Shown here piece by piece: positions 39,570 through 53,558 of a stretch of 64,000 nucleotides of DNA. Every line of letters starts with the position of its first letter. Within the stretch, counting starts at the first letter, position 1. The stretch is from NCBI RefSeq assembly GCF_010548305.1, contig NZ_JAAGLV010000021.1, positions 1 through 64,000 on the forward strand, in the 5' to 3' direction. Position numbers and translations under genes: made by a program. The stretch is from Streptomyces sp. SID13031 (GTDB lineage: Bacteria; Actinomycetota; Actinomycetes; Propionibacteriales; Kribbellaceae). The notes beneath the pieces are model-generated. The model searched no databases, was not told the DNA's origin, and worked only from the letters and a program-made list of their open reading frames with translations.

Positions 39570-42500
39570 TCAGCCGAAGTTCCGGTCGATGGACTGCGAC
39601 GGAGTCGGGCTCGGCTTGGCCTGGGCGACCCGCTGATCGCTCGGGTGCGTCCCTGCCTCGACACCCTTCAGCGTGCCGAGCAGCTCGAGCTCGGACAGCG
39701 TCACCCCGGTCGCACCGGCCGCCGGAGTCATCACCAGCCGGTACTGCGTGTAGGCCTTCGGCGCTGCGACGCTGAACGACCTGGTGTACGACGTGAACGC
39801 CCATGCCTGGCCGCTCCGCTTGTCCACCTCGGCCCACGTCGTCCCGTCGTTCGACCCCTCCAACGTCCACGCGGAGGGCGCGGTACCGGTGCTTCCACTG
39901 GTCAGCGTGTACATCGTGACCGGACGGCCGTCCTGCAACTGCACCGTCACGGTCGGGGTGGCGCCGGTCAGCGTGACCTGCTTCTTCGAGTCGTTGTCGG
40001 TCAGCGCGGACACGTCCACCCCGCCGGCCGACGTGACGGCCCCGGAGTCCTCGGTCGAGTCACGCCACGTCTTCGGGTCCTCGCCCGGAGTCGTGATCGA
40101 CGGCGGGGCGTCGTTGCGGCCGCTGCCCCAGGTCGACGGCTGGTCCGTCATGTCGAACTCGATCTTGCCGCCGCTCGCGATCAGGTCGTGCGGCAGGTTG
40201 GTCGAGGTCCAGGCCTTGCCGTTGACCTTGACGCCCTTCACGTACTTGTTCGTGGCGCTGTTGTTCGGTGCGCTGATGGTCAGCTTCTTGCCGCCGGACA
40301 GCCGCACCGTCGCCTTGGTGAACAGCGGAGCGCCGATCGCGTACGACGGCGAGCCGACCTGCAGCGGGTAGAACCCGAGCATGCTGAACAGGTACCACGA
40401 CGACATCTCGCCGTTGTCCTCGTCGCCCGGGTAGCCCTGGCCGATCTCGGAGCCCAGGTAGAGCCGGTCCAGGACCTCGCGGACCTTCTCCTGCGTCTTC
40501 GACGGCTGACCGACGAAGTCGTACATGTACGCGATGTGGTGCGACGGCTGGTTGCTGTGGCCGTACTGGCCCATCCGGACGTCCCGCGCTTCGAGCATCT
40601 CGTGGATCGTGCCGCCGTAGCCGCCGGTGTGCAGCGCGTCCTCCGGCGTACTCCAGAACTCGTCGAGCTTCTTCGCCAGACCTTCGCGACCGCCGTACAG
40701 GGCAGCCAGGCCGGCGCCGTCCTGCGGAGTGGAGAACGCCATGTTCCACGCGTTCGTCTCGGTGTAGTCGTGACCCCAGTCCATCGGGTCGAAGGTGGTC
40801 GGCGAGTTGCCCCACAGACCGCTTCCGTCCTTGCCCTGGAAGAAGTTCAGCGCCGGGTCGAACAGCGTGACGTAGTTACGCGCACGGTTCAGGTAGTAGT
40901 TGTAGTTGTCCAGGTACTCCTGTTTGCGCGGGTCGCTCGCCTTCGCGCCGTCGTACAGCGCCTTCGACATGTTGGCGATGCCATAGTCGTTGATGTAGCC
41001 GTCCATCGACCAGCTGAAGCCCTCGCCGGTGGTGCTGGCCGTGTAGCCGGCGAACACCGAGTGGTCCAGACCCTTGCGGCCGACGTTGTCTGTCGGCGGG
41101 CGAGCCGCCGCGTTCTTCAGCGCGGCGTCGTACGCGGCCTGTACGTCGATGCCCTTGATCCCCTTGAGGTAGGCGTCGGCGAAGGCGACGTCCGAGCTGG
41201 TGCCGACCATCAGGTTGGCATAACCCGGCGAGGACCAGCGGGAGATCCAGCCGCCGTCCTTGTACTGCTGGACGAACCCGTTCACCAGGTCGGCCGCGTC
41301 GTCCTGCGAGAACAGGCTGTACGCCGGCCAGACGGTCCGGTACGTGTCCCAGAACCCGTTGTTCACGAAGGTCTGGCCGGCGACGAGCTTCGAGCCGGTC
41401 GTGGTCGGGGTGTCGGCGCCGACCTTGGGCGACGTCGGCGACGCGTAGGTGATCACCGGCTTCGACGCGGTACCGGTGTTCTCCGAGCCGTTGTTCGGGT
41501 AGAGGAACAGCCGGTACAGGTTGCCGTACATCGTGTTGAGCTGGTCGGTGGTCGCACCCTCGACCTCGATGGTGGACAGCTTGGCGTCCCAGGCGTTCTG
41601 GGCCGCGTTGCGGACCTTCTCGAACCGGCTGCCCTCGGCCAGCTCCAGCTCGAGGTTCTTCTTCGCCTGCGCGGTGCCGATCAGCGAGGTCGCGATCCGC
41701 AGTTGCACCTGCTTCACCTTCGGGTCGAAGGAGAAGAACCCGCCGACGTTCGCGCCGCCACCGTTGGACAGCTTGCCGCTGGCAACGACCTTCTGGTCGA
41801 CGACGCCGTAGACGAACAGCCGGCCGGCGCCGGTGGACAGGCCGCTCTTCACGTCGCTGTAGCCGGTGACCACACCGGTCGCCGGGTCGAGCGTGAGGCC
41901 GCCGAGGTTACTGGTGTTGTCGAAGATCAGCTTCGCCTGGCCGGCCGGGAACGAGAACCGCATCATCGCGGCGTGGTCGGTCGGGGTCAGCTCGGCCGCG
42001 TTGCCGTTGTCGAACGTGACGCCGTAGTAGTACGGCCGGGCGACCTCGTTGTCATGGCTGAACGCCCAGGCGCGCGCGTCCCGATCCGCCGTCGGCGTGT
42101 CGGCAGTGGACGGCATCACCTGGAAGGTCTGCCGGTCGCCCATCCACGGGCTCGGCTCGTGGCTGATCGAGAACGCCTGGATCTCCGGCTTGTTCTGGTC
42201 GTTGTTGCCCTTGGCGTAGTCGTACAGCCAGGAGGTCGAGCCGGCGTTCGTCACCGGCGTCCAGAAGTTGAAGCCGTGCGGTACGGCGGTGGCCGGGAAG
42301 TTGTTTCCCCGGGAGAATCCGCCGGTCGAGTTGGTGCCGCGGGTGGTCAGCACCAGGTCGGACGGGTGGTGCCGGGCGGTCAGCTGCGCGGCGGCGTCCG
42401 AGGTGGTCGCCTTGCTGATCCGGACGTCGTCGATCCAGCCACGGAAGTCCGCCGGGCCGGACGGCTTGTCATAGCCGACCAGGATCCGGGTCACCGTCTT

Positions 42501-43598
42501 GCCGGCCGCGACCTTGCCCAGGTCGGCCTCGATGTTGTTCCACTGGTTCGTGGACAGGCCCTTGCCGTCGCCCTGACCGCGCGGGCTGAGCTCGAAGCCA
42601 CGGTGGTCCTTGGCCTTCAGATCGCTCAGGTAGGTGCCGTCGGAGAACGCCAGGTCGACCGCCGCGAAGGTGCTCGGGTAGCTCAGGTCGCCCTCGACGT
42701 GCTCGGGAAAGATCTTGTACGCCAGCTGGGTGTCCGGGCCGACCGTCAGGTCCACGTCGGCGACCTTGTTCCAGGTGTAGCCCCGGCCCTCGGCGGTCTG
42801 GTGTCCGGCGTACCGGAACGACTTGACGCCGGTGAAGCCGGTCCGGGCGCGGGCGTTGTAGGCGCTGGTCGGGCCGGAGTCCAGCCGCGATTCCGCCACC
42901 TCGCCAGGGGGCGGCAGGGGAGCGCCGTTCGACAGGTACCAGTCGGCGAGCTGGACGATGTTCTCGCCGTGGTTCAGCGTGACGTCGAACTTGAAGAACT
43001 TGTACGCCGTGGAGTTGCTGAAGCTGTACTCCTTGGTCTGGAACCGGTTGGCGAAGCTCTCGCCGGTCCGGGTGTCCAGCGTGGTCCAGGTGGTCCCGTC
43101 GTTCGAACCGGACACGGTCCAGTTCTGCGGGTCGCGGCCGTCGGCGTCGTTGGCCGAGGTGAGCGCGTACTTGCGGATCACCACCGGCGCGGAGGTCTCA
43201 TAGGTCAGCCACCCGGTCTTCTGGAAGACCAGCCACTTGGTGAACTTGTCACCGTCGGCGGCGTTGCTCGCGATCTCACCGCCACCGGTGTTCTCGCCGC
43301 TCGCGGTCACCTTGGTGACCTTGTCCATCTCGCTGCCACCGATCCCGGTCGGCGTCGGGCCTTCGACACCGCCGGCCCGTGGCTTCCCGTCCGGTCCGGT
43401 CTCGACCGCATCGGCGTACCCGGGCTGCGGCTGGCCAGGCTCGAAGGAGGTGAAGAAGCTGGAACCGGCGACGACCGGCTGCGCTTCGGCGTTCGGGCTC
43501 GCGGTGGAGCCGGCGCTCGCTGACGTGGAGGACATGGAAGACATTGTCACAACAAGCCCGAGAGCCGTGACGAGCCCCAGGGGACGGCGGAGATCCAT
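39570..43598 (-). CDS. Secreted GH92 alpha-mannosidase, multimodular
   Basis: A 1342-residue exoenzyme. Signal peptide about 1-29; F5/8 type C-like (CBM32) beta-sandwich about 95-225; a GH92-associated N-domain; GH92 catalytic region about 420-1150; and a second F5/8-like domain about 1200-1315. GH92 marks are QTFVNNGFWDTYRTVWP, MDWGHDYTETNAWNM and GYPGDEDNGEMSSWYLFSM, the last holding the likely catalytic acid/base residues. It should remove alpha-linked mannose (exo, calcium-dependent, inverting) from fungal or yeast glycans. ATG at 43598 with AGGAGCG. A LacI-type palindrome lies 70 bp upstream. Confidence 0.95.
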   Translation of the reverse strand: MDLRRPLGLVTALGLVVTMSSMSSTSASAGSTASPNAEAQPVVAGSSFFTSFEPGQPQPGYADAVETGPDGKPRAGGVEGPTPTGIGGSEMDKVTKVTASGENTGGGEIASNAADGDKFTKWLVFQKTGWLTYETSAPVVIRKYALTSANDADGRDPQNWTVSGSNDGTTWTTLDTRTGESFANRFQTKEYSFSNSTAYKFFKFDVTLNHGENIVQLADWYLSNGAPLPPPGEVAESRLDSGPTSAYNARARTGFTGVKSFRYAGHQTAEGRGYTWNKVADVDLTVGPDTQLAYKIFPEHVEGDLSYPSTFAAVDLAFSDGTYLSDLKAKDHRGFELSPRGQGDGKGLSTNQWNNIEADLGKVAAGKTVTRILVGYDKPSGPADFRGWIDDVRISKATTSDAAAQLTARHHPSDLVLTTRGTNSTGGFSRGNNFPATAVPHGFNFWTPVTNAGSTSWLYDYAKGNNDQNKPEIQAFSISHEPSPWMGDRQTFQVMPSTADTPTADRDARAWAFSHDNEVARPYYYGVTFDNGNAAELTPTDHAAMMRFSFPAGQAKLIFDNTSNLGGLTLDPATGVVTGYSDVKSGLSTGAGRLFVYGVVDQKVVASGKLSNGGGANVGGFFSFDPKVKQVQLRIATSLIGTAQAKKNLELELAEGSRFEKVRNAAQNAWDAKLSTIEVEGATTDQLNTMYGNLYRLFLYPNNGSENTGTASKPVITYASPTSPKVGADTPTTTGSKLVAGQTFVNNGFWDTYRTVWPAYSLFSQDDAADLVNGFVQQYKDGGWISRWSSPGYANLMVGTSSDVAFADAYLKGIKGIDVQAAYDAALKNAAARPPTDNVGRKGLDHSVFAGYTASTTGEGFSWSMDGYINDYGIANMSKALYDGAKASDPRKQEYLDNYNYYLNRARNYVTLFDPALNFFQGKDGSGLWGNSPTTFDPMDWGHDYTETNAWNMAFSTPQDGAGLAALYGGREGLAKKLDEFWSTPEDALHTGGYGGTIHEMLEARDVRMGQYGHSNQPSHHIAYMYDFVGQPSKTQEKVREVLDRLYLGSEIGQGYPGDEDNGEMSSWYLFSMLGFYPLQVGSPSYAIGAPLFTKATVRLSGGKKLTISAPNNSATNKYVKGVKVNGKAWTSTNLPHDLIASGGKIEFDMTDQPSTWGSGRNDAPPSITTPGEDPKTWRDSTEDSGAVTSAGGVDVSALTDNDSKKQVTLTGATPTVTVQLQDGRPVTMYTLTSGSTGTAPSAWTLEGSNDGTTWAEVDKRSGQAWAFTSYTRSFSVAAPKAYTQYRLVMTPAAGATGVTLSELELLGTLKGVEAGTHPSDQRVAQAKPSPTPSQSIDRNFG

Positions 43599-43788: not shown

Positions 43789-44706
43789 ATGGACGGATTC
43801 GAAGACAGGGTGCTCGTGACGGGCGCCTCCGGCTTCATCGGGCGGGCCGTGGTTGCCGCCTTGCGGGCGCGGGACCTGCCGGTGACGGCTGTGGACCGGG
43901 AGCCGGCGGATGCCTCGTGGGACGACGGTGTCACCGCTATCACCGGCGACCTGGCCGAGCAGGAGGTTTGCATCGCAGCCTTCGAGACGCGGCCGCGGGC
44001 GGTGGTGCACCTGGCGGCGCTGACCTCGGTACTGCGGTCTGTCGAGGCCCCGATGCGGACCTTCGCCGAGAACGTCACGATCACCCAGGTGCTGCTGGAG
44101 TTGTCGCGTGGCAGTGGTGTGGACAGCTTCGTGATGGCCTCCACGAACGCGGTGGTCGGCGACGTCGGCACCGAGACCATCACCGCCGAGCGCCCGCTGC
44201 GCCCGCTCACGCCGTACGGCGCGACGAAGGCCGCCGGCGAGATGCTGCTCTCGGCGTACTCCGGCAGCTACGGCCTGGCGACGGCGGCGCTGCGCTTCAC
44301 CAACGTCTACGGCCCGGGCATGTCGCACAAGGACAGCTTCGTCCCGCGGATGATGCGCGCGGCCCTGACCGGCACCGGCGTCAAGGTGTACGGCGACGGC
44401 AAGCAGCGCCGCGACCTCGTGTACGTCGACGACGTGGTCGCCGCCGTGCTCCTGGCCCTCGACACCCGGTACGACGGCCGCGCGATCATCGGCTCGGGCA
44501 ACTCGGTCTCCGTGCTCGACCTGGTCGATGCAGTGCGCGCGGTGACGGGCGCCGAAGTACCGGCTGAGCATGTGGAGGCGCCGGCTGGGGAGATGCCGGC
44601 CGTGGTGGTCGACGTGTCCGCCAGCGCGGAGACGCTCGGCTACCGGCCCACGGTGTCGCTGGAGGATGGCTTGGCACGGACGTGGCAGTACTTCCAAGCC
44701 CAGTGA
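43789..44706 (+). CDS. NAD-dependent sugar-nucleotide epimerase (SDR)
   Basis: A 305-residue extended short-chain dehydrogenase of the UDP-glucose 4-epimerase/dTDP-glucose-type group. NAD motif GASGFIG (12-18); active site Thr/Ser region MASTNAVVG and YGATK (Tyr, Lys). FTNVYGPGM and DLVYVDDVVAAV are family marks. Probably makes a nucleotide sugar for the glycosyltransferase encoded next, whose GTG overlaps this stop by 4 bp. Confidence 0.9.
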   Translation: MDGFEDRVLVTGASGFIGRAVVAALRARDLPVTAVDREPADASWDDGVTAITGDLAEQEVCIAAFETRPRAVVHLAALTSVLRSVEAPMRTFAENVTITQVLLELSRGSGVDSFVMASTNAVVGDVGTETITAERPLRPLTPYGATKAAGEMLLSAYSGSYGLATAALRFTNVYGPGMSHKDSFVPRMMRAALTGTGVKVYGDGKQRRDLVYVDDVVAAVLLALDTRYDGRAIIGSGNSVSVLDLVDAVRAVTGAEVPAEHVEAPAGEMPAVVVDVSASAETLGYRPTVSLEDGLARTWQYFQAQ

Positions 44707-46904
44707 GGCGGACCCTCAGGGCGCACTGGTTGCTCGCCATCTTCCTGGTGGCGGGCCTGGTACTGCGTGTGCTGGCGACCGTCGCCTACCGGCCGGCGAT
44801 CATCTACACCGACTCGGTGCAGTACCTGACCAACATGAAGGACCTGAAGCCCGATCAGCTCAACCCGATCGGCTACGACTTCGTTCTCAAGCCACTGGTC
44901 GACATCGGCGGCCTCACCGGTGTGGTGATCGTGCAGCACCTCGCAGGGCTGGCCATCGGGGTCGCCATCTATGCGCTGGCCCGCAGGCTCACCGTCTACA
45001 AGTGGCTGGCCGCTCTGGCGGCCGCGCCGATCCTGCTCGACGCCTACCAGGTGCAGATCGAGCAGAACATCATGGCCGAGACCACCTTCGACGTACTGCT
45101 CGTAGCGGTCCTCTGGACTCTCCTCGGCTGGGGCAAGCCGGGCTGGAAGCGGGCGCTCGCAGTCGGCCTGCTCCTGGGCGCCGCCTTCGTAGTACGCACC
45201 ATCGGCCTGACCCTGATCGTTGCCGCGGTCCTCTACCTCGTGGTGGTCGGCTCCGACTGGCGTCATCACCGCAGCAGGCTCGTACTACGAACCGCTGCCG
45301 CGCTAGCCGGCTTCGCTCTCGTCTCCGGCGCCTACGTCGGCTACATCCACAGCGAGACGGGCAAGTGGGCCATTTCGGGCGCGGACGACACAGTCCTGTA
45401 CGGCCGGACCGCAGTAGTCGCCGACTGTGCCAAGCTGCCGCTCGACGAGGGCACCAAACTGTTCTGCCCGACGGAGCCGCTCGGTCAGCGCCTAGGCGTC
45501 GACTACTACGCGCACAACCACTACGGCGACCCGAACTGGCCGGGGCCGCTGCCACCTGGCACCACCAAGCAGCAGTTGGCGCACGACTTCAGCATGCTGG
45601 TGATCAAGCACCAGCCGTTCGATGTCGCGTGGGCCGCGGTCAAGGACTTCCTGAAGGGTTTCGCGCCGACCAGGACCACTTCGCCGGACGACGTACCGCT
45701 GGATCGGTGGCAGTTCCAGCTGACCTACCCGAACCTCGCCGACCCGAACACGGCCAAGGCGTCGCAGACCTGGGGCGGGACTGCCCCGCACGTCATCCAC
45801 GGTCCGGCCGTCGTACTGCGGGCCTACCAACTCAACGGTGGCTACACGAGCGGCCTGGCTCTTGGGATCGCAGTACTGATCGCACTGGCCGCTGGAGCCG
45901 GGGTTGGTCGAGCCAAGCAGTCCGGTCTCCGCTCTGCTGCGCTACTGCCCGCAACTGCTGGGGTGATCCTCCTGCTGGGGTCCGCAGCCTTCGAGTTCTC
46001 CTGGCGGTATCAGCTGCCAGGCTTGGTGCTCTTCCCGCTGGCAGGAGCGATCGGCTTGCGGGCCGTGCTGGGCAGGGACCAGGCCCGGCCGCCAATGGAG
46101 AGCTATCCGGACCAGACCGATTCCGAGGCGCTCGACGACTTCCGGGCCAGACATGGCGAGCCGGCCTTCGCGCCACTCGTCGTGGTGATTGCCGCCTACA
46201 ACGAAGCGGGCGGTATCGGCCCAGTGCTGGCGAATATGCCCAAGACGTGCGCCGGGCTGCCGGTCGACGTACTGGTCGTCGTCGACGGAGCCGAGGACAA
46301 CACGGCCGAGATCGCCGCAGCGCATGGTGCCTACGTCTGCGTTGCCCCCCGCAACCGTGGCCAAGGTGCTGCGCTCCGACTCGGCTATCACCTTGCTGGG
46401 CAGGGCAGAGCGGAGTACGTCGCCACTACGGACGCGGACGGGCAGTACGACAACGACGAGCTCGATGTGCTGTTGCGGCCGATCCTGGAGGGCAAGGCGG
46501 ACTTCGTCACCGGCTCACGCCGGTTGGGTGAAGAGGACGCGGACAGCCGGCTGCGGTGGCTCGGGGTCCGCGTATTCGCTGCCCTGGCGTCGATCCTGAC
46601 CCGTCGCCACTTGACCGACACGTCGTTCGGGTTCAGGGCGACGCGGGCAGCCCTTGCCTGCAAGGTGACGCTGCGGGAGCCGCAGTACCAGTCGTCGGAA
46701 CTGCTCCTCGGAGTACTGGCCAGTGGCGCTCGCGTAGTCGAGTTGCCGATGACCATGCGTCGCAGGGGAGACGGGACGAGCAAGAAGGGGCCGGGGCTCG
46801 TCTACGGCGCCAACTACGCGCGGGTGATGACCACTACTTGGTGGCGGGAGTACGTACGGGCTTCGAGAAGACGTATCGGTCGAACAGCACGAACTTCAGG
46901 ATGA
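44703..46904 (+). CDS. Fused membrane GT-C-like and GT2 glycosyltransferase
   Basis: About 733 residues. The first 460 or so form a polytopic membrane region (10 or more helices) with an outside loop holding TDSVQYLTNMKD, as in GT-C/dolichol-phosphate-mannose-dependent enzymes. The C-terminal part (about 485-720) is a cytoplasmic GT2 domain (PLVVVIAAYNEAGGIGPVL; TDADGQYD as the DxD region; RRRGDGTSK). The GTG at 44703 overlaps the epimerase stop; GTG 44682 is an alternative. The GT2 part resembles polyprenyl-phosphate sugar transferases, so one polypeptide may make and use a lipid-linked sugar. The 3' end overlaps the convergent GtrA gene by 71 bp. Confidence 0.82.
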   Translation: MRRTLRAHWLLAIFLVAGLVLRVLATVAYRPAIIYTDSVQYLTNMKDLKPDQLNPIGYDFVLKPLVDIGGLTGVVIVQHLAGLAIGVAIYALARRLTVYKWLAALAAAPILLDAYQVQIEQNIMAETTFDVLLVAVLWTLLGWGKPGWKRALAVGLLLGAAFVVRTIGLTLIVAAVLYLVVVGSDWRHHRSRLVLRTAAALAGFALVSGAYVGYIHSETGKWAISGADDTVLYGRTAVVADCAKLPLDEGTKLFCPTEPLGQRLGVDYYAHNHYGDPNWPGPLPPGTTKQQLAHDFSMLVIKHQPFDVAWAAVKDFLKGFAPTRTTSPDDVPLDRWQFQLTYPNLADPNTAKASQTWGGTAPHVIHGPAVVLRAYQLNGGYTSGLALGIAVLIALAAGAGVGRAKQSGLRSAALLPATAGVILLLGSAAFEFSWRYQLPGLVLFPLAGAIGLRAVLGRDQARPPMESYPDQTDSEALDDFRARHGEPAFAPLVVVIAAYNEAGGIGPVLANMPKTCAGLPVDVLVVVDGAEDNTAEIAAAHGAYVCVAPRNRGQGAALRLGYHLAGQGRAEYVATTDADGQYDNDELDVLLRPILEGKADFVTGSRRLGEEDADSRLRWLGVRVFAALASILTRRHLTDTSFGFRATRAALACKVTLREPQYQSSELLLGVLASGARVVELPMTMRRRGDGTSKKGPGLVYGANYARVMTTTWWREYVRASRRRIGRTARTSG

Positions 46905-47286
46905 ACGTCACCGCGTTCGCGGTGAGAAAGACCGCACCGGCCAGGATCGTCCGCCAGGTGTGGGAATCGACCCAGCCGCGGACGAAGTGGTCGCCGGCGC
47001 TGGTGCCGGCGATGACGACCGCCGCGCTGCCCAGCACGATGATTGCGTAGGGCAACAACTCCCGCCGGGCCGAGATCCGGCCCTGCCGGCGCCAGGCCCA
47101 GCGCCGGTTCAGCACATAGTTGGGCACGGCACCGGCCGCGAAGGCGATCACGCTCGCCACGGCGGACGCAGTACCGATCCAGTAGCAGAGCAGGAAGGCG
47201 ACCTCGCTGGTCAGGGTGGCCACCAATGATGACGCTGAGTACTTGACCCAGGTCAGCAGGTTGGCCGGCTTCTTCACCTGGCCCAT
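46834..47286 (-). CDS. GtrA-like membrane protein
   Basis: A 150-residue GtrA/DPMS-associated protein with four membrane helices (about 12-34, 40-58, 78-98, 115-135) and the loop NYVLNRRWAWRRQG, the family signature. GtrA proteins are thought to help move polyprenyl-linked sugars across the membrane, which suits the neighbouring glycosyltransferase. Its last 71 bp lie antisense to the end of that gene. Confidence 0.88.
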   Translation of the reverse strand: MGQVKKPANLLTWVKYSASSLVATLTSEVAFLLCYWIGTASAVASVIAFAAGAVPNYVLNRRWAWRRQGRISARRELLPYAIIVLGSAAVVIAGTSAGDHFVRGWVDSHTWRTILAGAVFLTANAVTFILKFVLFDRYVFSKPVRTPATK

Positions 47287-47425
47287 TCTGCAACGTCTGC
47301 CCCAGTCGTTGCAGGTGCGCGTCGATTCACAGGAAAATACCAGCTAGCGGGCAGGTGTTTCCTCCACCAGCTGGGTACACAGGACAGGACAAAGGCAATT
47401 TCCGGTCCGGAAGGCGGTTCGATCC

Positions 47426-48583
47426 GTGCGTGTTCTCGTGCTGGGTGGTGACGGTTACCTGGGGTGGCCGACAGCACTGCATCTGTCCGACAGCGGACAT
47501 CAGACAGCGGTGCTGGACAACTTCGCGCGGCGTGGTTACGACCGCGAGCTCGGTGTCGACAGTCTGGTCCCGATCGAAGATCTCGATACCCGGGTCGCCG
47601 CCTGGCAGGAGGTCTCCGGGCAGCAGATCACGGCGTACACCGGTGATCTGTGCGACGCCGACTTCGTCTATCGGGTGCTGCGCGAGTTCAAGCCCGAGGC
47701 GATCGTGCACTTCGCCGAGCAGCGCGCCGCGCCGTACTCGATGATCGACCGGCAGCACGCCGTCTACACCCAGCAGAACAACGTGGTCGGCACGCTCAAC
47801 CTGATGTACGCCATCGCCGAGCTCGACCCCGGCATCCACCTGGTCAAGCTGGGCACGATGGGTGAGTACGGGACGCCCAACATCGACATCGAGGAAGGCT
47901 GGCTCGAGATCGAGCACAACGGTCGCAAGGACCGGATGCTCTACCCGAAGAAGCCGGGGTCGTTCTACCACCTGAGCAAGGTGCACGACTCGCACAACCT
48001 GGAGTTCGGCTGCCGGGTCTGGGGCCTGCGCGTCACCGACCTCAACCAGGGTGTGGTCTACGGCCAGCAGACGCCGCAGACCGTGCTGGATCCACGGCTG
48101 GCGACGCGGTTCGACTACGACGCGGTGTTCGGCACTGTGCTCAACCGCTTCGTCATCCAGGCCGTGCTCGGCGAGCCGTTGACCGTCTACGGCACCGGCG
48201 GGCAGACCCGTGGCCTGCTGGACATCCGGGACACGATCGAGTGCATCCGGCTCGCGGTGGAGAACCCGGCGGATGTCGGTGAGTTCCGCGTCTTCAACCA
48301 GATGACGGAGAGCTGCTCGGTCAGCGAGATCGCCCAACAGGTGGCTGAGTGCTTCCCCGGTCCGGTCCAGATCGACCACCTGGAGAACCCGCGGGTCGAG
48401 CAGCCGGAGCACTACTACAACGTCAAGCACACCGGCCTGGTCGGCCTCGGCCTGCGACCGCACCTGCTCTCGGAGACGCTGATCGAGTCGCTGTTCCCGA
48501 TCGTTGCCGAGCACAAGGACCGGGTGAACCTGGACGCGCTGCTCCCGACGGTTCGCTGGCGGGGCGGCCTCAAGTCCGCCTGA
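47426..48583 (+). CDS. sqdB: UDP-sulfoquinovose synthase-like epimerase
   Basis: A 385-residue extended SDR with the specific SQD1/SqdB signatures: GGDGYLGWPTALHLS at the NAD site, LGTMGEYGTPNIDIEEG, SFYHLSKVHDSHN (Tyr, Lys) and RVTDLNQGVVYGQ. In SQD1 the Thr of the TMGEYG stretch and the Tyr/Lys pair are catalytic; all are present. The expected reaction is UDP-glucose plus sulfite to UDP-sulfoquinovose. No SqdX/SqdD-type transferase is adjacent, so the product may feed a sulfoglycan rather than a sulfolipid. GTG start at 47426 after GGAAGG. Confidence 0.85.
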   Translation: MRVLVLGGDGYLGWPTALHLSDSGHQTAVLDNFARRGYDRELGVDSLVPIEDLDTRVAAWQEVSGQQITAYTGDLCDADFVYRVLREFKPEAIVHFAEQRAAPYSMIDRQHAVYTQQNNVVGTLNLMYAIAELDPGIHLVKLGTMGEYGTPNIDIEEGWLEIEHNGRKDRMLYPKKPGSFYHLSKVHDSHNLEFGCRVWGLRVTDLNQGVVYGQQTPQTVLDPRLATRFDYDAVFGTVLNRFVIQAVLGEPLTVYGTGGQTRGLLDIRDTIECIRLAVENPADVGEFRVFNQMTESCSVSEIAQQVAECFPGPVQIDHLENPRVEQPEHYYNVKHTGLVGLGLRPHLLSETLIESLFPIVAEHKDRVNLDALLPTVRWRGGLKSA

Positions 48584-48611: not shown

Positions 48612-49496
48612 TCAGGTCGCGTGGACGTACGAGCGGAAACGTCGCGCGGCCGGGCTGGCGGCGTGACCCTGGGGCAGCACGAGATCGAGACGGCGGGTCA
48701 GCTCGATCCCGGCCAACGGGATCAGCCGGATGGCCGCGGCGACTCGTGGTGCCAGGTCGAATCCGGTCGGCGCCAGGGTCACGCCGACGCCCGCCGCGAC
48801 CAGCTCGAGCACCATCGTCCACTCGTTCACCTCGCAGGCGATCCGCCGGCTGAGGCCGGCGGTCCGGAACGCGTCGTCGATCACGGTCCGGATGGCCCAC
48901 TGCGCGGGCGGTTCGACGAAGCGCTCATCGGCCAGCTGCTCGAGCGTGACCGAGTCGGCTTGCGCGAGCGGATGGTCCTTCGCCGCGATCAGCACGATCG
49001 GCTCGGCGGCCAGCGGCACCACCTCCAGACCGGCGACCCGGGCCGTCGGCAACGAGACCAGCGCGCAGTCGAGTCGTCCGTCCAGGACCAGGTCCACCAT
49101 CTGCATCCCCGGCAACTGCTGCACCGAGATGTTCACCCGCGGGTGCGCCAGCGCGAAGGCCGCCAGCCAGGACGAGAACGGCAGCCGATGCCCACTCGTC
49201 TGCAGCGCCCCGATCCGGAGCTGGCCAGCCAGCACTCCGTGCGCGTCCTGCACTGCCTGCTGGGCCGCATCGGCCGCGTCCAGCGTGTGCCGGGCGGCCG
49301 GCAGCAGCGCGGTTCCTTCAGCCGTCAACCGGACCGGCCTCGTACCGCGGACGAACAGCAGCGCGCCGACCTCCTTCTCCAGCGCCCGGATCGAGGTCGA
49401 CAGACCCGACTGGACGATGAGCTCGCGCGCCGCGGCCCGGGTGAAGTTCCGCTCCTCCGCGAGCGCCACGAAATGCCTCAGATGCCGCAGTTCCAT
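48612..49496 (-). CDS. LysR-family transcriptional regulator
   Basis: A 294-residue LysR protein: N-terminal winged HTH (MELRHLRHFVALAEERNFTR onward) and a periplasmic-binding-like effector domain (about 90-290). It is divergent from the MFS gene 60 bp away, the usual arrangement of a LysR regulator with its transport target. Effector unknown. Confidence 0.94.
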   Translation of the reverse strand: MELRHLRHFVALAEERNFTRAAARELIVQSGLSTSIRALEKEVGALLFVRGTRPVRLTAEGTALLPAARHTLDAADAAQQAVQDAHGVLAGQLRIGALQTSGHRLPFSSWLAAFALAHPRVNISVQQLPGMQMVDLVLDGRLDCALVSLPTARVAGLEVVPLAAEPIVLIAAKDHPLAQADSVTLEQLADERFVEPPAQWAIRTVIDDAFRTAGLSRRIACEVNEWTMVLELVAAGVGVTLAPTGFDLAPRVAAAIRLIPLAGIELTRRLDLVLPQGHAASPAARRFRSYVHAT

Positions 49497-49555: not shown

Positions 49556-50656
49556 GTGCGCGGATCAGGGCGGCCGTTGACTGGAAAGAGACGACATTTC
49601 GCCGTGCTGGTCGTCGGAACGGCCACCAGTTTCCGCTGGCTCGGTCACCTGTCCGACCGGCTGGGCCGCCGCCGGATCATCGTGCCCGCGCTACTGACCG
49701 GGATCCTTGCCGCCATCGTGCTCGCCGCGTGGCCGGCGCTGCCCGGCCTACTCATCGGCCGGGTGCTGACCGGCGTCGCCGTCGGGCTGATGGCCTCGAC
49801 CGCCACCGCCTACCTCGCCGACCTGTACGCCGAGGCGCGCCCGGCCGAGGCTCGGTCGGCCTTCCCGGGCCTGGTCGCGACCGCTGCGAACCTGGGCGGT
49901 CTCGCGCTGGGTCCGCTGGTCGCGGGCGCCTTCGCGCAGTGGCTGCCCGGTCCCTTGCACACGAGCTACCTGGTGTTCGGGGCGTTGATGGCGATCTTCC
50001 TCGGGTTCGTGCTGGCCAGCCCGGAGACCGTCGACACCGAACTGGCGGAGCGGGACCGGCCGGTGCGGTTCGCGGTCAGGCCCGGCCAGCACGCGGTGTT
50101 CGGCGCGGCCGCCGGCGTCGGGTTCTTCGCCTTCGCCCTGATGGGACTCTTCTCGTCGCTCGGCGCGATCATCGTCCGCGGCCAGCTCGGCATCAGCTCG
50201 TACTTCGTCGCCGGGCTGGCGCCGTTCGTTGCGTTCGCGGCCTCGGCAGTCGGGCAGCTCGCCCTCGGCAAGCTCGCGCTGCCCAAGATCCTGGCGATCG
50301 GCACCGCCCTGTTCCCGATCGGCCTGGCGCTCACGGCGGTGTCGCTCTACCACGCCTCGTTCTGGCTGGTGTTCCTCGGAGCAGGGCTGGCAGGCGCCGG
50401 TGCGGGCCTGCTCTTCAAGAGCAGCGTCACCCAAGCCGCCAAAGCCGCCGAACCCGCCTCGCGGGCCGGGGTACTGGCCGCGTTCTTCGTGATCTCGTAC
50501 TTCGGCATGGGCCTGCCGTCGATCGCCTTCAGCCTGTTCATCCGGCATTTCGACCTGAAGCCGACGATGATCGGCTTCGCCATCGTGTTGTCCGTCGGCA
50601 CGCTCGTCGCCGTGCTGGTCCCTCGCCGGAGGTCGCTACAGCTAGCGAGTGCCTGA
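49556..50656 (+). CDS. MFS transporter lacking N-terminal helix 1
   Basis: A 366-residue MFS protein that begins only just before the LGHLSDRLGRRR loop, which normally follows helix 2. Helix 1 and part of helix 2 are absent, and only 60 bp separate it from the LysR gene, so they are not encoded elsewhere nearby. The rest (about ten helices) is intact and open. No ribosome site stands out before GTG 49556. Either the gene has lost its 5' end (decaying) or it is a natural short form. It overlaps the convergent methyltransferase gene by 15 bp. Confidence 0.6.
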   Translation: MRGSGRPLTGKRRHFAVLVVGTATSFRWLGHLSDRLGRRRIIVPALLTGILAAIVLAAWPALPGLLIGRVLTGVAVGLMASTATAYLADLYAEARPAEARSAFPGLVATAANLGGLALGPLVAGAFAQWLPGPLHTSYLVFGALMAIFLGFVLASPETVDTELAERDRPVRFAVRPGQHAVFGAAAGVGFFAFALMGLFSSLGAIIVRGQLGISSYFVAGLAPFVAFAASAVGQLALGKLALPKILAIGTALFPIGLALTAVSLYHASFWLVFLGAGLAGAGAGLLFKSSVTQAAKAAEPASRAGVLAAFFVISYFGMGLPSIAFSLFIRHFDLKPTMIGFAIVLSVGTLVAVLVPRRRSLQLASA

Positions 50657-51322
50657 GACCTGCAGGGTCGGGGCCACTGCGAGGAAGCGACCGCGGCGGC
50701 CCCGGTCCGCTTGCTCGGCGAGCCAGCCGTCGGCATCGGCCCGGGTGATCAGCGCCTTGTCGACCGCGGCCGTCGCGGCTTCGGCCAACTGGTCGGCCAG
50801 CCGCCGATGGTCAGTGACCACCTCGGTGTGGACGACGACCTCGACATCGTGGAAGCCGGCGTCGAGGAGCAGGTCGCGGAATCCACGCGCCGCCCGTGGC
50901 GCCACCGATCTCGACTCGAGACCCAGCTCGACGACATCGGTCAGGTCTGGGTCATCGCTGTGGAGCAAGAGGAATCCGTAGTCCTGGCCGACCAGCACTA
51001 TGCGCCCGGCAGGGCGTAGTACGCGCCGGGCCTCGGTGATGGTGGGACGGGGGTCGGCCAGCAGGTGGAAGAGGCGGGCGGCGTGGTAGCCGTCGACCGA
51101 TTCGTCCTCGAGCGGCAGGTCGTCGGATGGTGCCACGTGAAACACGGCGTCCGGCGTACGGGCTCGCGCGATGGCGATCGCAGCGGGATCTGAGTCCACG
51201 CCGATCGTCTTGAGGTGTGCATCGGTCAGGTCGGCGACCGCAGTCCCGTCGCCACAGCCCACGTCTACGCAGGTGTCACCAGGCGCGAGTCGGAGCGCCT
51301 CGAGAAGCGTTTGTTCACCCAT
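50642..51322 (-). CDS. Class I SAM-dependent methyltransferase
   Basis: A 226-residue methyltransferase with motif I VDVGCGDGTA (19-28), the acidic VDSDP loop and the VLRPAGRIVLVG post-II strand. Substrate unknown; the Methyltransf_11/UbiE-like group acts on small molecules. ATG at 51322. A perfect 20-bp palindrome 16 bp upstream with a TTGACT -35-like start suggests MerR-family activation. Confidence 0.88.
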   Translation of the reverse strand: MGEQTLLEALRLAPGDTCVDVGCGDGTAVADLTDAHLKTIGVDSDPAAIAIARARTPDAVFHVAPSDDLPLEDESVDGYHAARLFHLLADPRPTITEARRVLRPAGRIVLVGQDYGFLLLHSDDPDLTDVVELGLESRSVAPRAARGFRDLLLDAGFHDVEVVVHTEVVTDHRRLADQLAEAATAAVDKALITRADADGWLAEQADRGRRGRFLAVAPTLQVSGTR

Positions 51323-51421: not shown

Positions 51422-52423
51422 TCAGTCCATCGAAATCTTGTCGAACACCGTGGTGGTGAAGCGGACGTCGACGCCGACCTCGTCGCCGACGGCCGGCGGG
51501 GCCACCGAGGACGGCAGGAAGAGCATGCTCGCCTGCATGTGCGGCGGCTCGGCGAACCAGCGCTGCTTGCCCTCGATCGTGAACGGCGACAACGCCATCC
51601 CGGCGGCGTCCAGACTGCCCTTGGCCATCGCGATCGCGCGCTGCCGGACGGTCGCCGCCGCGGTGGGAGCCTCCAGGCCGACACCATGCGCGGTACCACC
51701 CGAGACGACCAGGATGTGCCCGTCACCGGCGACGCGGCGCTGCCGGTAGCCGACGCGCTCGCCACGGCGGACCGAGTGCACGTCGAGGACCGTCGCGCGC
51801 ACGGTGAAGGCGCCGCGGTCACCGAGCCAGAGGCCGGTCCCCATCCGGAGCAACACGTTCTCGCCGATGTCCGCGAGTTTCTGGGACGGTACGTGCGACA
51901 CCCACAGCGGTCCGTTGCGAACCGCCCGGGCCGCGCGACCGAGCTCCTGAGCCTCCCTGATGTTCGCGGACGTACCGCCCGCGCCCATCGGGAAGTGCAG
52001 CGACCAGCCTTCGAACTTGATCCGGTCCAGTGCGTTCAGCAGCATCGTGTGCCGCAGCTCGCGGGCGCCGATCCCGTGCCGGCGCATCGACGTCTGGACC
52101 TCGATCAGGACCCGGCTGCCGGCCGGGATCGAGACCAGGTCGGCCAGCCGGCTGACCGTGTGGATGACGTTCTTGCCCTGCGGGATCTCCAGGAACGGCC
52201 GCCACGGCGTGAGCACCACGACGTCGTCCTTGAAGTCGGGCGGGACCTCGTTGTACGTCCCGACCGCGACCGTCCGGGCACCGAGGGCGCGCGACTCGGC
52301 CAGCAGCCGGGTGTTGCCGACGCCGTACCCGTTGCCCTTGGCGACCGGGACGATGTCGGGGTTCCACGTGGAACGTAGATGGTCGCGCCATCGATCGGAA
52401 TCGATGTGCAGGATCAGGGGCAT
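51422..52423 (-). CDS. Alanine-racemase-like PLP protein
   Basis: A 333-residue fold-type III PLP protein. The barrel begins near residue 3, with VPVAKGNGYGVG carrying the Schiff-base Lys29, and RMGTGLWLGD and VSGGTAHGVGL later on. Sequence outside the Lys motif is unlike classical Alr; the C-terminal beta domain is short and divergent and the usual catalytic Tyr is not obvious. It begins 4 bp after the FemX gene, so the two form an operon. Racemisation of a cell-wall amino acid is an inference. Confidence 0.75.
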   Translation of the reverse strand: MPLILHIDSDRWRDHLRSTWNPDIVPVAKGNGYGVGNTRLLAESRALGARTVAVGTYNEVPPDFKDDVVVLTPWRPFLEIPQGKNVIHTVSRLADLVSIPAGSRVLIEVQTSMRRHGIGARELRHTMLLNALDRIKFEGWSLHFPMGAGGTSANIREAQELGRAARAVRNGPLWVSHVPSQKLADIGENVLLRMGTGLWLGDRGAFTVRATVLDVHSVRRGERVGYRQRRVAGDGHILVVSGGTAHGVGLEAPTAAATVRQRAIAMAKGSLDAAGMALSPFTIEGKQRWFAEPPHMQASMLFLPSSVAPPAVGDEVGVDVRFTTTVFDKISMD

Positions 52424-52427
52424 GTTG

Positions 52428-53558
52428 TCATCGCCGTCTCATGTAGAGGTCGAATGCGGTGTAGAGCGCCTTGTTCAACGGCAGATCCCACTCACCGACG
52501 TACTCGACGGCTTCGCCGCCGGTGCCGACCTTGAACTGGATCAACCCGACGTGCGGGTCGTTCTGGTCCAAGGTGTCGGTGATGCCCCGTAGGTCGTACA
52601 CGGTTGCGCCCGCAGCGAGCGCATCCGACATCATCCGCCACTGGATCGCATTCGATCCACGGACGTCCCGCTTCGTTGTCGAGCTGGCACCGTAGGAGTA
52701 CCAGGAGTGACCGCCCACCCGGACCCAGATCGTCGAGGCGACCAGGTCGCCCTCGTGGTAGGCGTTGTAGAGCCGGAAGTCGCAGCAGTCGGCGGGCTGG
52801 CTCGCCATCGCCTCGTACATCTTGACGAAGTACGGCAACGGCCGCGGGGTGAAATGATCCCGCTCGGCCGTCTCGACATACAGCGCGTGGAAGGCCTTCA
52901 GGTCCTCCGGTGTGCCGAGGGTGACCTCGACGCCGAGCTTGGCCGACTTCTTGATGTTGCGCCGCCACTGCTGGTTCATCCCGGTCAGCAGGTCCTCCTC
53001 GGTCTTGCCGGCCAGCGGCACCTGGAAGACGTACTGCGGCTGGCCGGCGGCGAAGCCCTCGCCGACCTTCGGGGCCTTCCAGCCGAGCGCGCGGAGCTGG
53101 GCGGACACGGTCGCGCCGGACGGCTCGATCACATCCGGCCGGACGTCGCCGAGCTTGGGCTGCTGCCCACCGGCGATCGCGTCCTTGATCGTCTTGGCCG
53201 ACCAGCGCCGGGTCGGTACCGGCGCACCCATCCGCAATCCGAACGCGCCCGCCTCCTGCGCGTGCGCGGCCAGCGGTCGCAGGTACCGGCCGAGGTCGAT
53301 CGCGTCCCAGTCGATCACCGGGCCCTCGGGCAGGTACGCGAGGTAGCGCTTGACCTTCGGCATCTGCCGGTAGAGCACCAGCGCGACGCCCAGCAGATCG
53401 TTCGGGGCCGCCGGATCGAACCAGCCCAGCGACTCGGCCTTCCACTCGCTCTTCACCGCCGCCCAGCCCGGGGTCTGCAGGAAGCTCGCCGAAGGCTGCG
53501 CCGCCAGATAGGCGGCGTGCTGCTCGGCTGAGATGGTCCGGATGCTCAAGTCACTCAC
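52428..53558 (-). CDS. FemX/FemAB lipid II aminoacyltransferase
   Basis: A 376-residue FemAB-family protein made of two GNAT-like folds; it should add the first cross-bridge residue (often Gly) from aminoacyl-tRNA to lipid II. Recognisable stretches are PSASFLQTPGWAAVKSEWK, YLPEGPVIDW, NQQWRRNIKKSAKLGVEV and the C-terminal YDLRGITDTLDQNDPHVGL region. GTG start at 53558. Streptomycetes have a femX close to rpsF (from memory), in keeping with this position before the ribosomal operon. Confidence 0.9.
   Translation of the reverse strand: MSDLSIRTISAEQHAAYLAAQPSASFLQTPGWAAVKSEWKAESLGWFDPAAPNDLLGVALVLYRQMPKVKRYLAYLPEGPVIDWDAIDLGRYLRPLAAHAQEAGAFGLRMGAPVPTRRWSAKTIKDAIAGGQQPKLGDVRPDVIEPSGATVSAQLRALGWKAPKVGEGFAAGQPQYVFQVPLAGKTEEDLLTGMNQQWRRNIKKSAKLGVEVTLGTPEDLKAFHALYVETAERDHFTPRPLPYFVKMYEAMASQPADCCDFRLYNAYHEGDLVASTIWVRVGGHSWYSYGASSTTKRDVRGSNAIQWRMMSDALAAGATVYDLRGITDTLDQNDPHVGLIQFKVGTGGEAVEYVGEWDLPLNKALYTAFDLYMRRR

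Follow-up and report, generated by a model that had tools for sequence, protein, structure and literature searches.

We identified a four-gene module in the genus Kribbella that probably constitutes an extracytoplasmic glycosylation system of the three-component Gtr type equipped with its own supply of a sulfonated sugar donor. The module occupies positions 43789 to 48583 of a 64,000-nucleotide stretch of DNA (contig NZ_JAAGLV010000021.1, positions 1 to 64,000; hereafter, the window) from an 8.5-Mb genome. It combines a homologue of UDP-sulfoquinovose (UDP-SQ) synthase with a nucleotide-sugar epimerase (referred to as EPI), a fused glycosyltransferase (the fusion), and a GtrA family protein. 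Sulfoquinovose is best known as a membrane-lipid head group in photosynthetic cells and is also found in some archaeal S-layer glycans. An earlier note on this DNA had placed such a synthase in a cluster with an epimerase, a fused glycosyltransferase, and GtrA; the four open reading frames (ORFs) are all present, each at or inside the coordinates given for it, and a codon-position gene caller also picks them. Our assignment draws on gene content, model folds, conserved residues, linkage, synteny, and the exchange of one synthase for another, from which we infer the substrates, the direction of transfer, and the acceptor. The features of the module are as follows.

43789-44706, plus strand: EPI, an extended-SDR nucleotide-sugar epimerase of 305 amino acids (aa) (PF01370, E 2.4e-59)
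44682-46904, plus strand: fused glycosyltransferase, 740 aa (PMT_2 at residues 77-214; PF00535, i.e., GT2, at residues 501-654)
46167-46904, plus strand: C-terminal GT2 half of the fusion (residue 496 onward), the predicted cytoplasmic-side enzyme that charges polyprenyl phosphate with a sugar
46834-47286, minus strand: GtrA/DPMS-TM family protein, 150 aa, a putative flippase of lipid-linked sugars (PF04138, E 2.4e-12)
47287-47425, no strand: 139 bp separating the divergently oriented genes of GtrA and the synthase, a candidate shared promoter region
47426-48583, plus strand: UDP-SQ synthase homologue of the SQD1/SqdB/Agl3 family, 385 aa

The genes are tightly packed: the 3' end of the EPI gene overlaps the start of the fusion, and the tail of the fusion overlaps the tail of the opposite-strand GtrA gene. 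The synthase starts 139 bases past GtrA, from which it diverges.

The ORF at 47426-48583 is a homologue of UDP-SQ synthases and is predicted from this homology to make UDP-SQ from UDP-glucose and sulfite. Its best solved relative is Arabidopsis SQD1 (1qrr/1i24; phmmer E of ~1e-152 over residues 2 to 380 of 385), and among NCBIfam models NF041015 (UDP-sulfoquinovose synthase) scores highest, with 471 bits and E 2e-141. PMC4388408 lists the SQD1 triad (Thr145, Tyr182, and Lys186) together with Agl3 residues whose loss inactivated or impaired the enzyme (His95, Arg101, Met145, Glu147, and Tyr148) as active-site residues. All residues of this list that were checked are conserved in the window synthase, where the active site comprises H95, R100, T144, M145, E147, Y148, S179, Y181, and K185. 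The complete SQD1/SqdB signature described in the earlier note is thus borne out. When conservation was scored over 118 synthase homologues, i.e., a main set of 107 and a deep clade of 11, seven positions were invariant (H95, G146, Y148, S179, Y181, H182, and K185). R100 is kept in 90/107 sequences of the main set and in 11/11 of the deep clade, M145 in 105/107 and 10/11, respectively, and position 144 in the main set is occupied by Thr (96 sequences) or Ser (11 sequences). E147 is kept in 105/107 of the main set, and Gly replaces this catalytic-region residue in all 11 sequences of the deep clade (L132, L134-L139, L087, and L233-L235; L and G numbers denote loci and genomes); an E147A mutant of Agl3 was impaired, according to PMC4388408.

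The fusion appears to join two glycosyltransferases of different folds. A profile of 16 fusions matched 13 solved sequences, the first of which were dolichol-phosphate-mannose synthase (DPMS) and ArnC, and every one was matched by the C-terminal half. An AlphaFold2 model built from an alignment of fusions had a mean predicted local distance difference test (pLDDT) score of 80.9 and a predicted template-modeling (pTM) score of 0.66. In a second-look alignment of this model, the GT2 half resembled DPMS (residues 496-725; 5mlz, Z 22.4), ArnC (497-733; 9bhe, Z 21.1), and GtrB (495-729; 9nyd, Z 19.6). The N-terminal half resembled Pmt4 (residues 7-470; 9i5l, Z 20.3 over 332 residues with 11% identity), Pmt1-Pmt2 (7-468; 6p25, Z 20.0 over 349 residues), and AglB (16-468; 3waj, Z 19.2 over 289 residues). 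No GT-C protein was among the 50 matches that Foldseek listed for the model, and the GT-C reading is based on the Pfam PMT_2 match and the second-look alignment. Judged from its model, the fusion would consist of a PMT/OST-like GT-C domain (approximately residues 7-470) joined to a polyprenyl-phosphate sugar synthase of the DPMS/ArnC/GtrB kind (approximately residues 496-730), and the two domains would work on opposite sides of the membrane. Gtr systems, as described in PMC11127046 and PMC7389260, comprise a GtrA flippase, a GtrB polyprenyl-phosphate-sugar synthase, and a GT-C transferase, with examples including O-antigen glucosylation, teichoic-acid glycosylation by GtcA/GtlA/GtlB, and pentofuranose addition. 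The cluster looks Gtr-type because the fusion corresponds to the two catalytic parts of such a system and GtrA to the third.

The synthase and the fusion occur together across genomes. Taking E 1e-60 or better as synthase presence, we found the synthase in 31/37 genus genomes and in 0/21 order relatives (58 genomes, own included); the fusion was present in exactly the same 31 genus genomes and absent from the other 27. Part of the fusion lies within approximately 1.5 kb of the synthase in 30/30 genus loci fetched. The identical presence patterns, combined with this proximity, indicate that the association is not due to chance. At broader scales, the synthase was detected in 19/394 class genomes (own included) and in 100/396 genomes of a phylum sample made up of our own genome and otherwise of other classes. 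The earlier note had considered that building a sulfonated sugar into such a glycan would be unusual for the group; as regards the synthase, this holds for the class but not for the genus, where it is the rule, nor for the phylum sample.

Fusion matches in the class sample were counted as GT2-reaching if they ran to the end of the GT2 half at E 1e-40 or better. Such matches occurred in 12/393 class genomes (own left out), 11 of which were in the synthase list, and in the twelfth genome (G548) a partial synthase lies at one edge of the 7-kb contig that bears the match; all twelve matches lie <3 kb from a synthase. The other fusion matches in this sample cover the GT-C half only, mostly in genomes with no synthase match, and we did not score them as module. 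Orthologues of EPI (at E 1e-60 or better) were found in 7/393 class genomes (8/394 with our own), all beside a synthase. Fisher tests in which our own genome was left out and G548 was scored as a miss gave p values, with kinship ignored, of 5e-16 for the GT2 half, 3e-8 for EPI, and 5e-7 for the fusion within the genus.

To these counts can be added gene order. We compared 140 synthase loci, comprising the window, 20 phylum stretches (picked down the ranking from 99 non-own synthase genomes), 20 genus stretches, 14 and 5 class stretches (18 non-own synthase genomes and G548), and 80 further loci (the best 80 of 590), with a few genomes counted twice (e.g., G020 and G025). Labels were assigned by neighbors within 6.5 kb: a module locus carries EPI and GT2, each at least 45% identical, and an SqdX-like GT4 neighbor is at least 38% identical over 80%. 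This procedure yielded 58 module loci (25 from Kribbella), 8 with an SqdX-like GT4, 13 of a GT2-DUF2304 type, 9 partial, and 52 other, the last being partly short contigs or from outside Actinomycetota. The order EPI>GT-C>GT2>GtrA<synthase> was observed in 35/58 module loci, including 16 outside Kribbella; 6 module loci, all from Kribbella, deviate solely in having no GtrA match, and the remaining 17 differ, 13 of which have no GT-C homologue nearby. Among named hosts, the full gene order is found in Amycolatopsis, Saccharomonospora, Microlunatus, and Actinopolyspora (where no single frame spans both the GT-C part and the GT2 part), and Nonomuraea and Actinomadura have the synthase, GT2, and EPI with no GT-C homologue nearby. 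The module recurs in several actinomycete families.

A tree of 118 synthase rows, made by a quick method with Kribbella thinned to four rows plus the window and with rows of <340 aa left out, placed 32/36 module rows in one starred clade of 37. Two others (L185 and L192) fall in the neighboring clade, and the final two (L138, from genome G773, and L139) fall in the deep clade, which a long, fully supported branch sets apart. At L138, EPI (64%), the fusion (52%), and GtrA (40%) are retained in the same order, and the synthase is only 44% identical. The deep clade also holds two synthases that stand beside SqdX-like GT4s (L135 and L136). We argue that the exchange of the synthase inside an otherwise kept module means that the module needs synthase activity. 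The six synthase-less genus genomes retain both flanks of the locus, the GH92 gene at one end and, at the opposite end, the genes for the methyltransferase, the racemase-like protein, and FemAB; in five of the six, the module between these flanks is gone.

The epimerase carries a pocket of its own. The closest solved relative of EPI is MoeE5, a UDP-glucuronate 4-epimerase (E 3.5e-42 by sequence and 7e-67 by profile). In the UDP-glucuronate epimerase UGAepi, the carboxylate is contacted by Thr126, Ser127, Ser128, and Thr178 (PMC7984243) and by Arg185 (PMC12338863). With BcUGAepi numbers mapped onto MoeE5 and EPI by inference from the alignment, these carboxylate-binding residues do not recur in EPI, which has S118-T119-N120, N172, and H180/K181 at the positions aligned to MoeE5. 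The EPI signature can be written as S118-T119-N120 and G-M-x-(H)-K181-D182. Across 57 EPI rows located close to synthases (25 from Kribbella and 32 others; 55 distinct), S118, T119, N120, K181, and D182 never vary, and 49/57 have H180. Nine further rows stood outside this set, eight on account of <50% identity and one on account of length. All nine have Lys181, only the two module rows among them have D182, and SSG (five rows) or STG (two rows) occurs where the module type has STN. Lys181 is thus common to 66/66 synthase-linked rows, and N120 together with D182 marks the module type. As a control, the HKD motif was absent from five epimerase-family paralogues of our own genome (seven tried, two not properly readable), a weak control because the paralogues are other kinds of enzyme and two of the seven were unreadable.

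A plain GalE or UGAepi label for EPI was not adopted, since the pocket residues fit neither exactly. The unusual pocket and the linkage to the synthase suggest a substrate whose C6 group is other than a carboxylate, and EPI, which resembles UDP-glucuronate 4-epimerases in sequence and has its own invariant pocket motif, may epimerize UDP-SQ. A more specific version is tentative: EPI could be a UDP-SQ 4-epimerase yielding UDP-6-deoxy-6-sulfo-galactose, which the fusion would load onto polyprenyl phosphate and its GT-C half would add to the outer side of the envelope, with O-methylation in some strains. We know of no source for this nucleotide sugar. If this version is true, the sulfonated sugars on these bacterial surfaces would form a new family, distinct from sulfoquinovosyl diacylglycerol (SQDG).

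The flippase slot is less uniform. It holds a GtrA family protein in the window, and none was found in this slot of six Kribbella loci (L088-L091, L097, and L140, with L090 and L140 representing one genome), where a methyltransferase of approximately 240 aa sits between the fusion and the synthase. Homologues of this methyltransferase (at least 52%) occur near 19/58 module synthases, near 1/9 partial ones, and near 0/73 others (i.e., the SqdX-like, GT2-DUF2304, and other types), and some module loci contain both the methyltransferase and GtrA; the window lacks it. It matches a Pfam S-adenosylmethionine (SAM) methyltransferase, and its best NCBIfam match, a weak one, is a mycofactocin oligosaccharide methyltransferase. 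Its linkage suggests that the sugar is O-methylated in some strains, and its position in the GtrA slot shows that GtrA can be absent. A SAM methyltransferase of approximately 240 to 250 aa also adjoins the synthase in L126, L127, L152, L153, L156, L157, and L159.

Assembled into a pathway, the predicted activities would run as follows. The synthase, with its conserved active site, would make UDP-SQ from UDP-glucose and sulfite, for the supply of which a PAPS/APS reductase family is present. EPI, given its linkage, would act on a nucleotide sugar for this donor, the simplest case being UDP-SQ itself or an adjacent step. In the cytoplasm, the GT2 half, according to its model fold, would charge polyprenyl phosphate with the sulfosugar, and GtrA (assigned at the family level) or another small transporter would flip the lipid-linked sulfosugar. 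The GT-C half, likewise by model fold, would transfer it to an acceptor outside, either a cell-envelope glycan or a protein, and in some relatives the linked methyltransferase would decorate the sugar. The suggestion in the earlier note that a sulfonated sugar goes to a lipid-linked or surface acceptor rather than to diacylglycerol is supported, as a prediction from sequences and models, by the domain anatomy, the co-occurrence, and the synteny across families.

Several observations weigh against this assignment. The score of the window synthase (471 bits) is below the NF041015 cut-off of 575, as are those of homologues L152 (476), L138 (347), and the SqdX-linked L136 (332), and membership is therefore claimed at the family level, not as an NCBIfam equivalog. 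The six Kribbella loci in which a methyltransferase takes the place of GtrA include the closest relatives of the window. No homologue of the GT-C half lies within 6.5 kb in 13/58 module loci, and one synthase-less genus genome (G022, at L230) keeps EPI (64%) and GtrA (46%) without the synthase or the fusion. A full-length SqdX-like GT4 is encoded elsewhere in the genome (C69:73485-74576, E 3.3e-82), and weak GT4 matches (27 to 33%) occur near 3/58 module synthases (L139, L150, and L154). Finally, the six absences within the genus may represent few events, and in the searches run with n=400, only the top 2 to 5 candidates of each genome were scored.

An alternative that we consider unlikely is that EPI and the GT2/GT-C halves transfer a non-sulfonated uronic acid or hexose, e.g., galacturonate, and that the synthase serves another product and merely shares the locus. 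The kinship of EPI with the UDP-glucuronate 4-epimerase MoeE5 would fit this explanation, as would the G022 locus, but in the class sample the EPI orthologues (E 1e-60) stand beside synthases only (8/8, own included). By alignment, EPI also differs at several of the published uronate-epimerase residues, and a deep-clade synthase occupies the same slot in G773.

Ordinary sulfolipid synthesis, in which the synthase would feed the SqdX-type GT4 at C69:73485-74576 and the adjoining glycosyltransferase would be unrelated, is improbable. The transferases of sulfolipid synthesis are SqdX, a GT4, and SqdD, a GT8. The earlier note had found no such transferase in the cluster and had proposed a genome search for both. 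No SqdX-type GT4 lies in the cluster, and PF01501, the family of SqdD-type GT8s, had 0 matches in our own genome (the control was positive in 6/14 genomes), but the search did recover one full-length SqdX-like GT4, which does not follow the synthase across genomes. The profile was built from five GT4 proteins encoded next to other synthases, so that the label derives from gene neighborhood and not from a characterized SqdX, and an NCBIfam scan of three of the five matched no SqdX model. The C69 protein matches this profile over its full length, and in some actinobacteria the synthase does adjoin such a GT4 (L130, L135, and L136). The C69 protein is nevertheless present in 37/37 genus genomes, including the six without a synthase, and in 12/21 order relatives, 0 of which have a synthase. 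Its presence in synthase-less genomes and its lack of linkage to the synthase, to which the fusion and EPI are linked, make ordinary sulfolipid unlikely; the C69 GT4 is more probably an MgtA-like lipid mannosyltransferase with a housekeeping role. Among class genomes with a synthase (own left out), an SqdX-like GT4 is near the synthase in 0/11 genomes with the GT2 half and in 3/7 without it.

Another possibility, that the synthase homologue of this clade has given up sulfite addition and supplies the same transferase with a glucose modified in some other way, such as an unsulfonated 5,6-ene, is very unlikely: Agl3 without sulfite gives UDP-glucose-5,6-ene (PMC4388408 and PMC8987622) and the window synthase scores below its family cut-off, but all checked active-site residues are kept and the deep clade able to fill the module slot also adjoins SqdX-like GT4s.

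Genes flanking the proposed sulfosugar module were also considered as members. A LysR gene (48612-49496) was rejected because it adjoins the synthase in just 5/30 genus loci, and an MFS gene (49556-50656) has a similarly patchy pattern across the 30. The GH92 gene (39570-43598) and a methyltransferase gene (50642-51322) were rejected because both are retained in the six synthase-less genus genomes. The GH92 protein, which has an F5/8 type C domain, adjoins the module in most genus stretches fetched, and a FemAB-family protein and an alanine-racemase-like protein, encoded at 51422-53558 of the window, form a pair that is conserved in the genus. Outside the genus, a large neighbor at L126:4904-6979, in a module locus without a GT-C homologue, has no Pfam match. 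Four loci from other actinobacterial classes (L073, L074, L077, and L211) combine the synthase with a GT2 that carries a DUF2304 domain, a flippase-like protein whose Pfam score is right at the cut-off, a distant EPI, and a large protein that matches no Pfam family, and L073 and L074 also carry a TMEM260-like O-mannosyltransferase family protein. The Pfam assignments were made on L073 and extended to the other loci by homology. These GT2-DUF2304 neighborhoods may represent the same principle realized in parallel.

If the proposed Gtr-type system operates as predicted, Gram-positive soil bacteria could display at the cell surface a sulfonate sugar whose charge is permanent, they might represent an additional bacterial source of sulfosugars in soil, and some Actinomycetota genes annotated as sulfolipid genes may do something else. 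The small size of the module and the existence of natural genomes without it in at least one cultured genus make the question directly testable. Among the matches listed, no open-licence paper described a sulfoquinovose surface glycan in an actinomycete, although one may be in print elsewhere, and none was found that joins UDP-SQ synthase with Kribbella. The parts are of known kinds; their combination is apparently new, in that it was not found in the open-licence literature among the matches listed.

Several known systems share parts of this combination. As in Gtr systems, a GT2 related to GtrB, ArnC, and DPMS, a GtrA family protein, and a transferase of GT-C fold are found together; unlike in those systems, the Kribbella GT2 and GT-C are one polypeptide, the set includes a UDP-SQ synthase as well as a specific epimerase, and the predicted sugar is a sulfonate. 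With the SQDG pathway (SqdB-SqdX, SQD1-SQD2, or SqdBDC), the module shares the first step, UDP-SQ synthase, but it has no linked SqdX-like GT4, the genome has no GT8 match, and the linked transferases are of the polyprenyl-phosphate kind. EPI shares with MoeE5 and BcUGAepi the extended-SDR fold and the S/T-Y-K triad, and differs in having N120, N172, and HKD where MoeE5 has S, T, and RPD and in being synthase-linked in the class sample. The nearest functional parallel may be Agl3 of Sulfolobus acidocaldarius, which, according to PMC4388408, is a UDP-SQ synthase with the same active-site residues that serves a surface glycan and not a membrane lipid. There the product is an archaeal S-layer N-glycan, whereas the Kribbella synthase is paired with a fused GT-C/GT2 glycosyltransferase and an epimerase.

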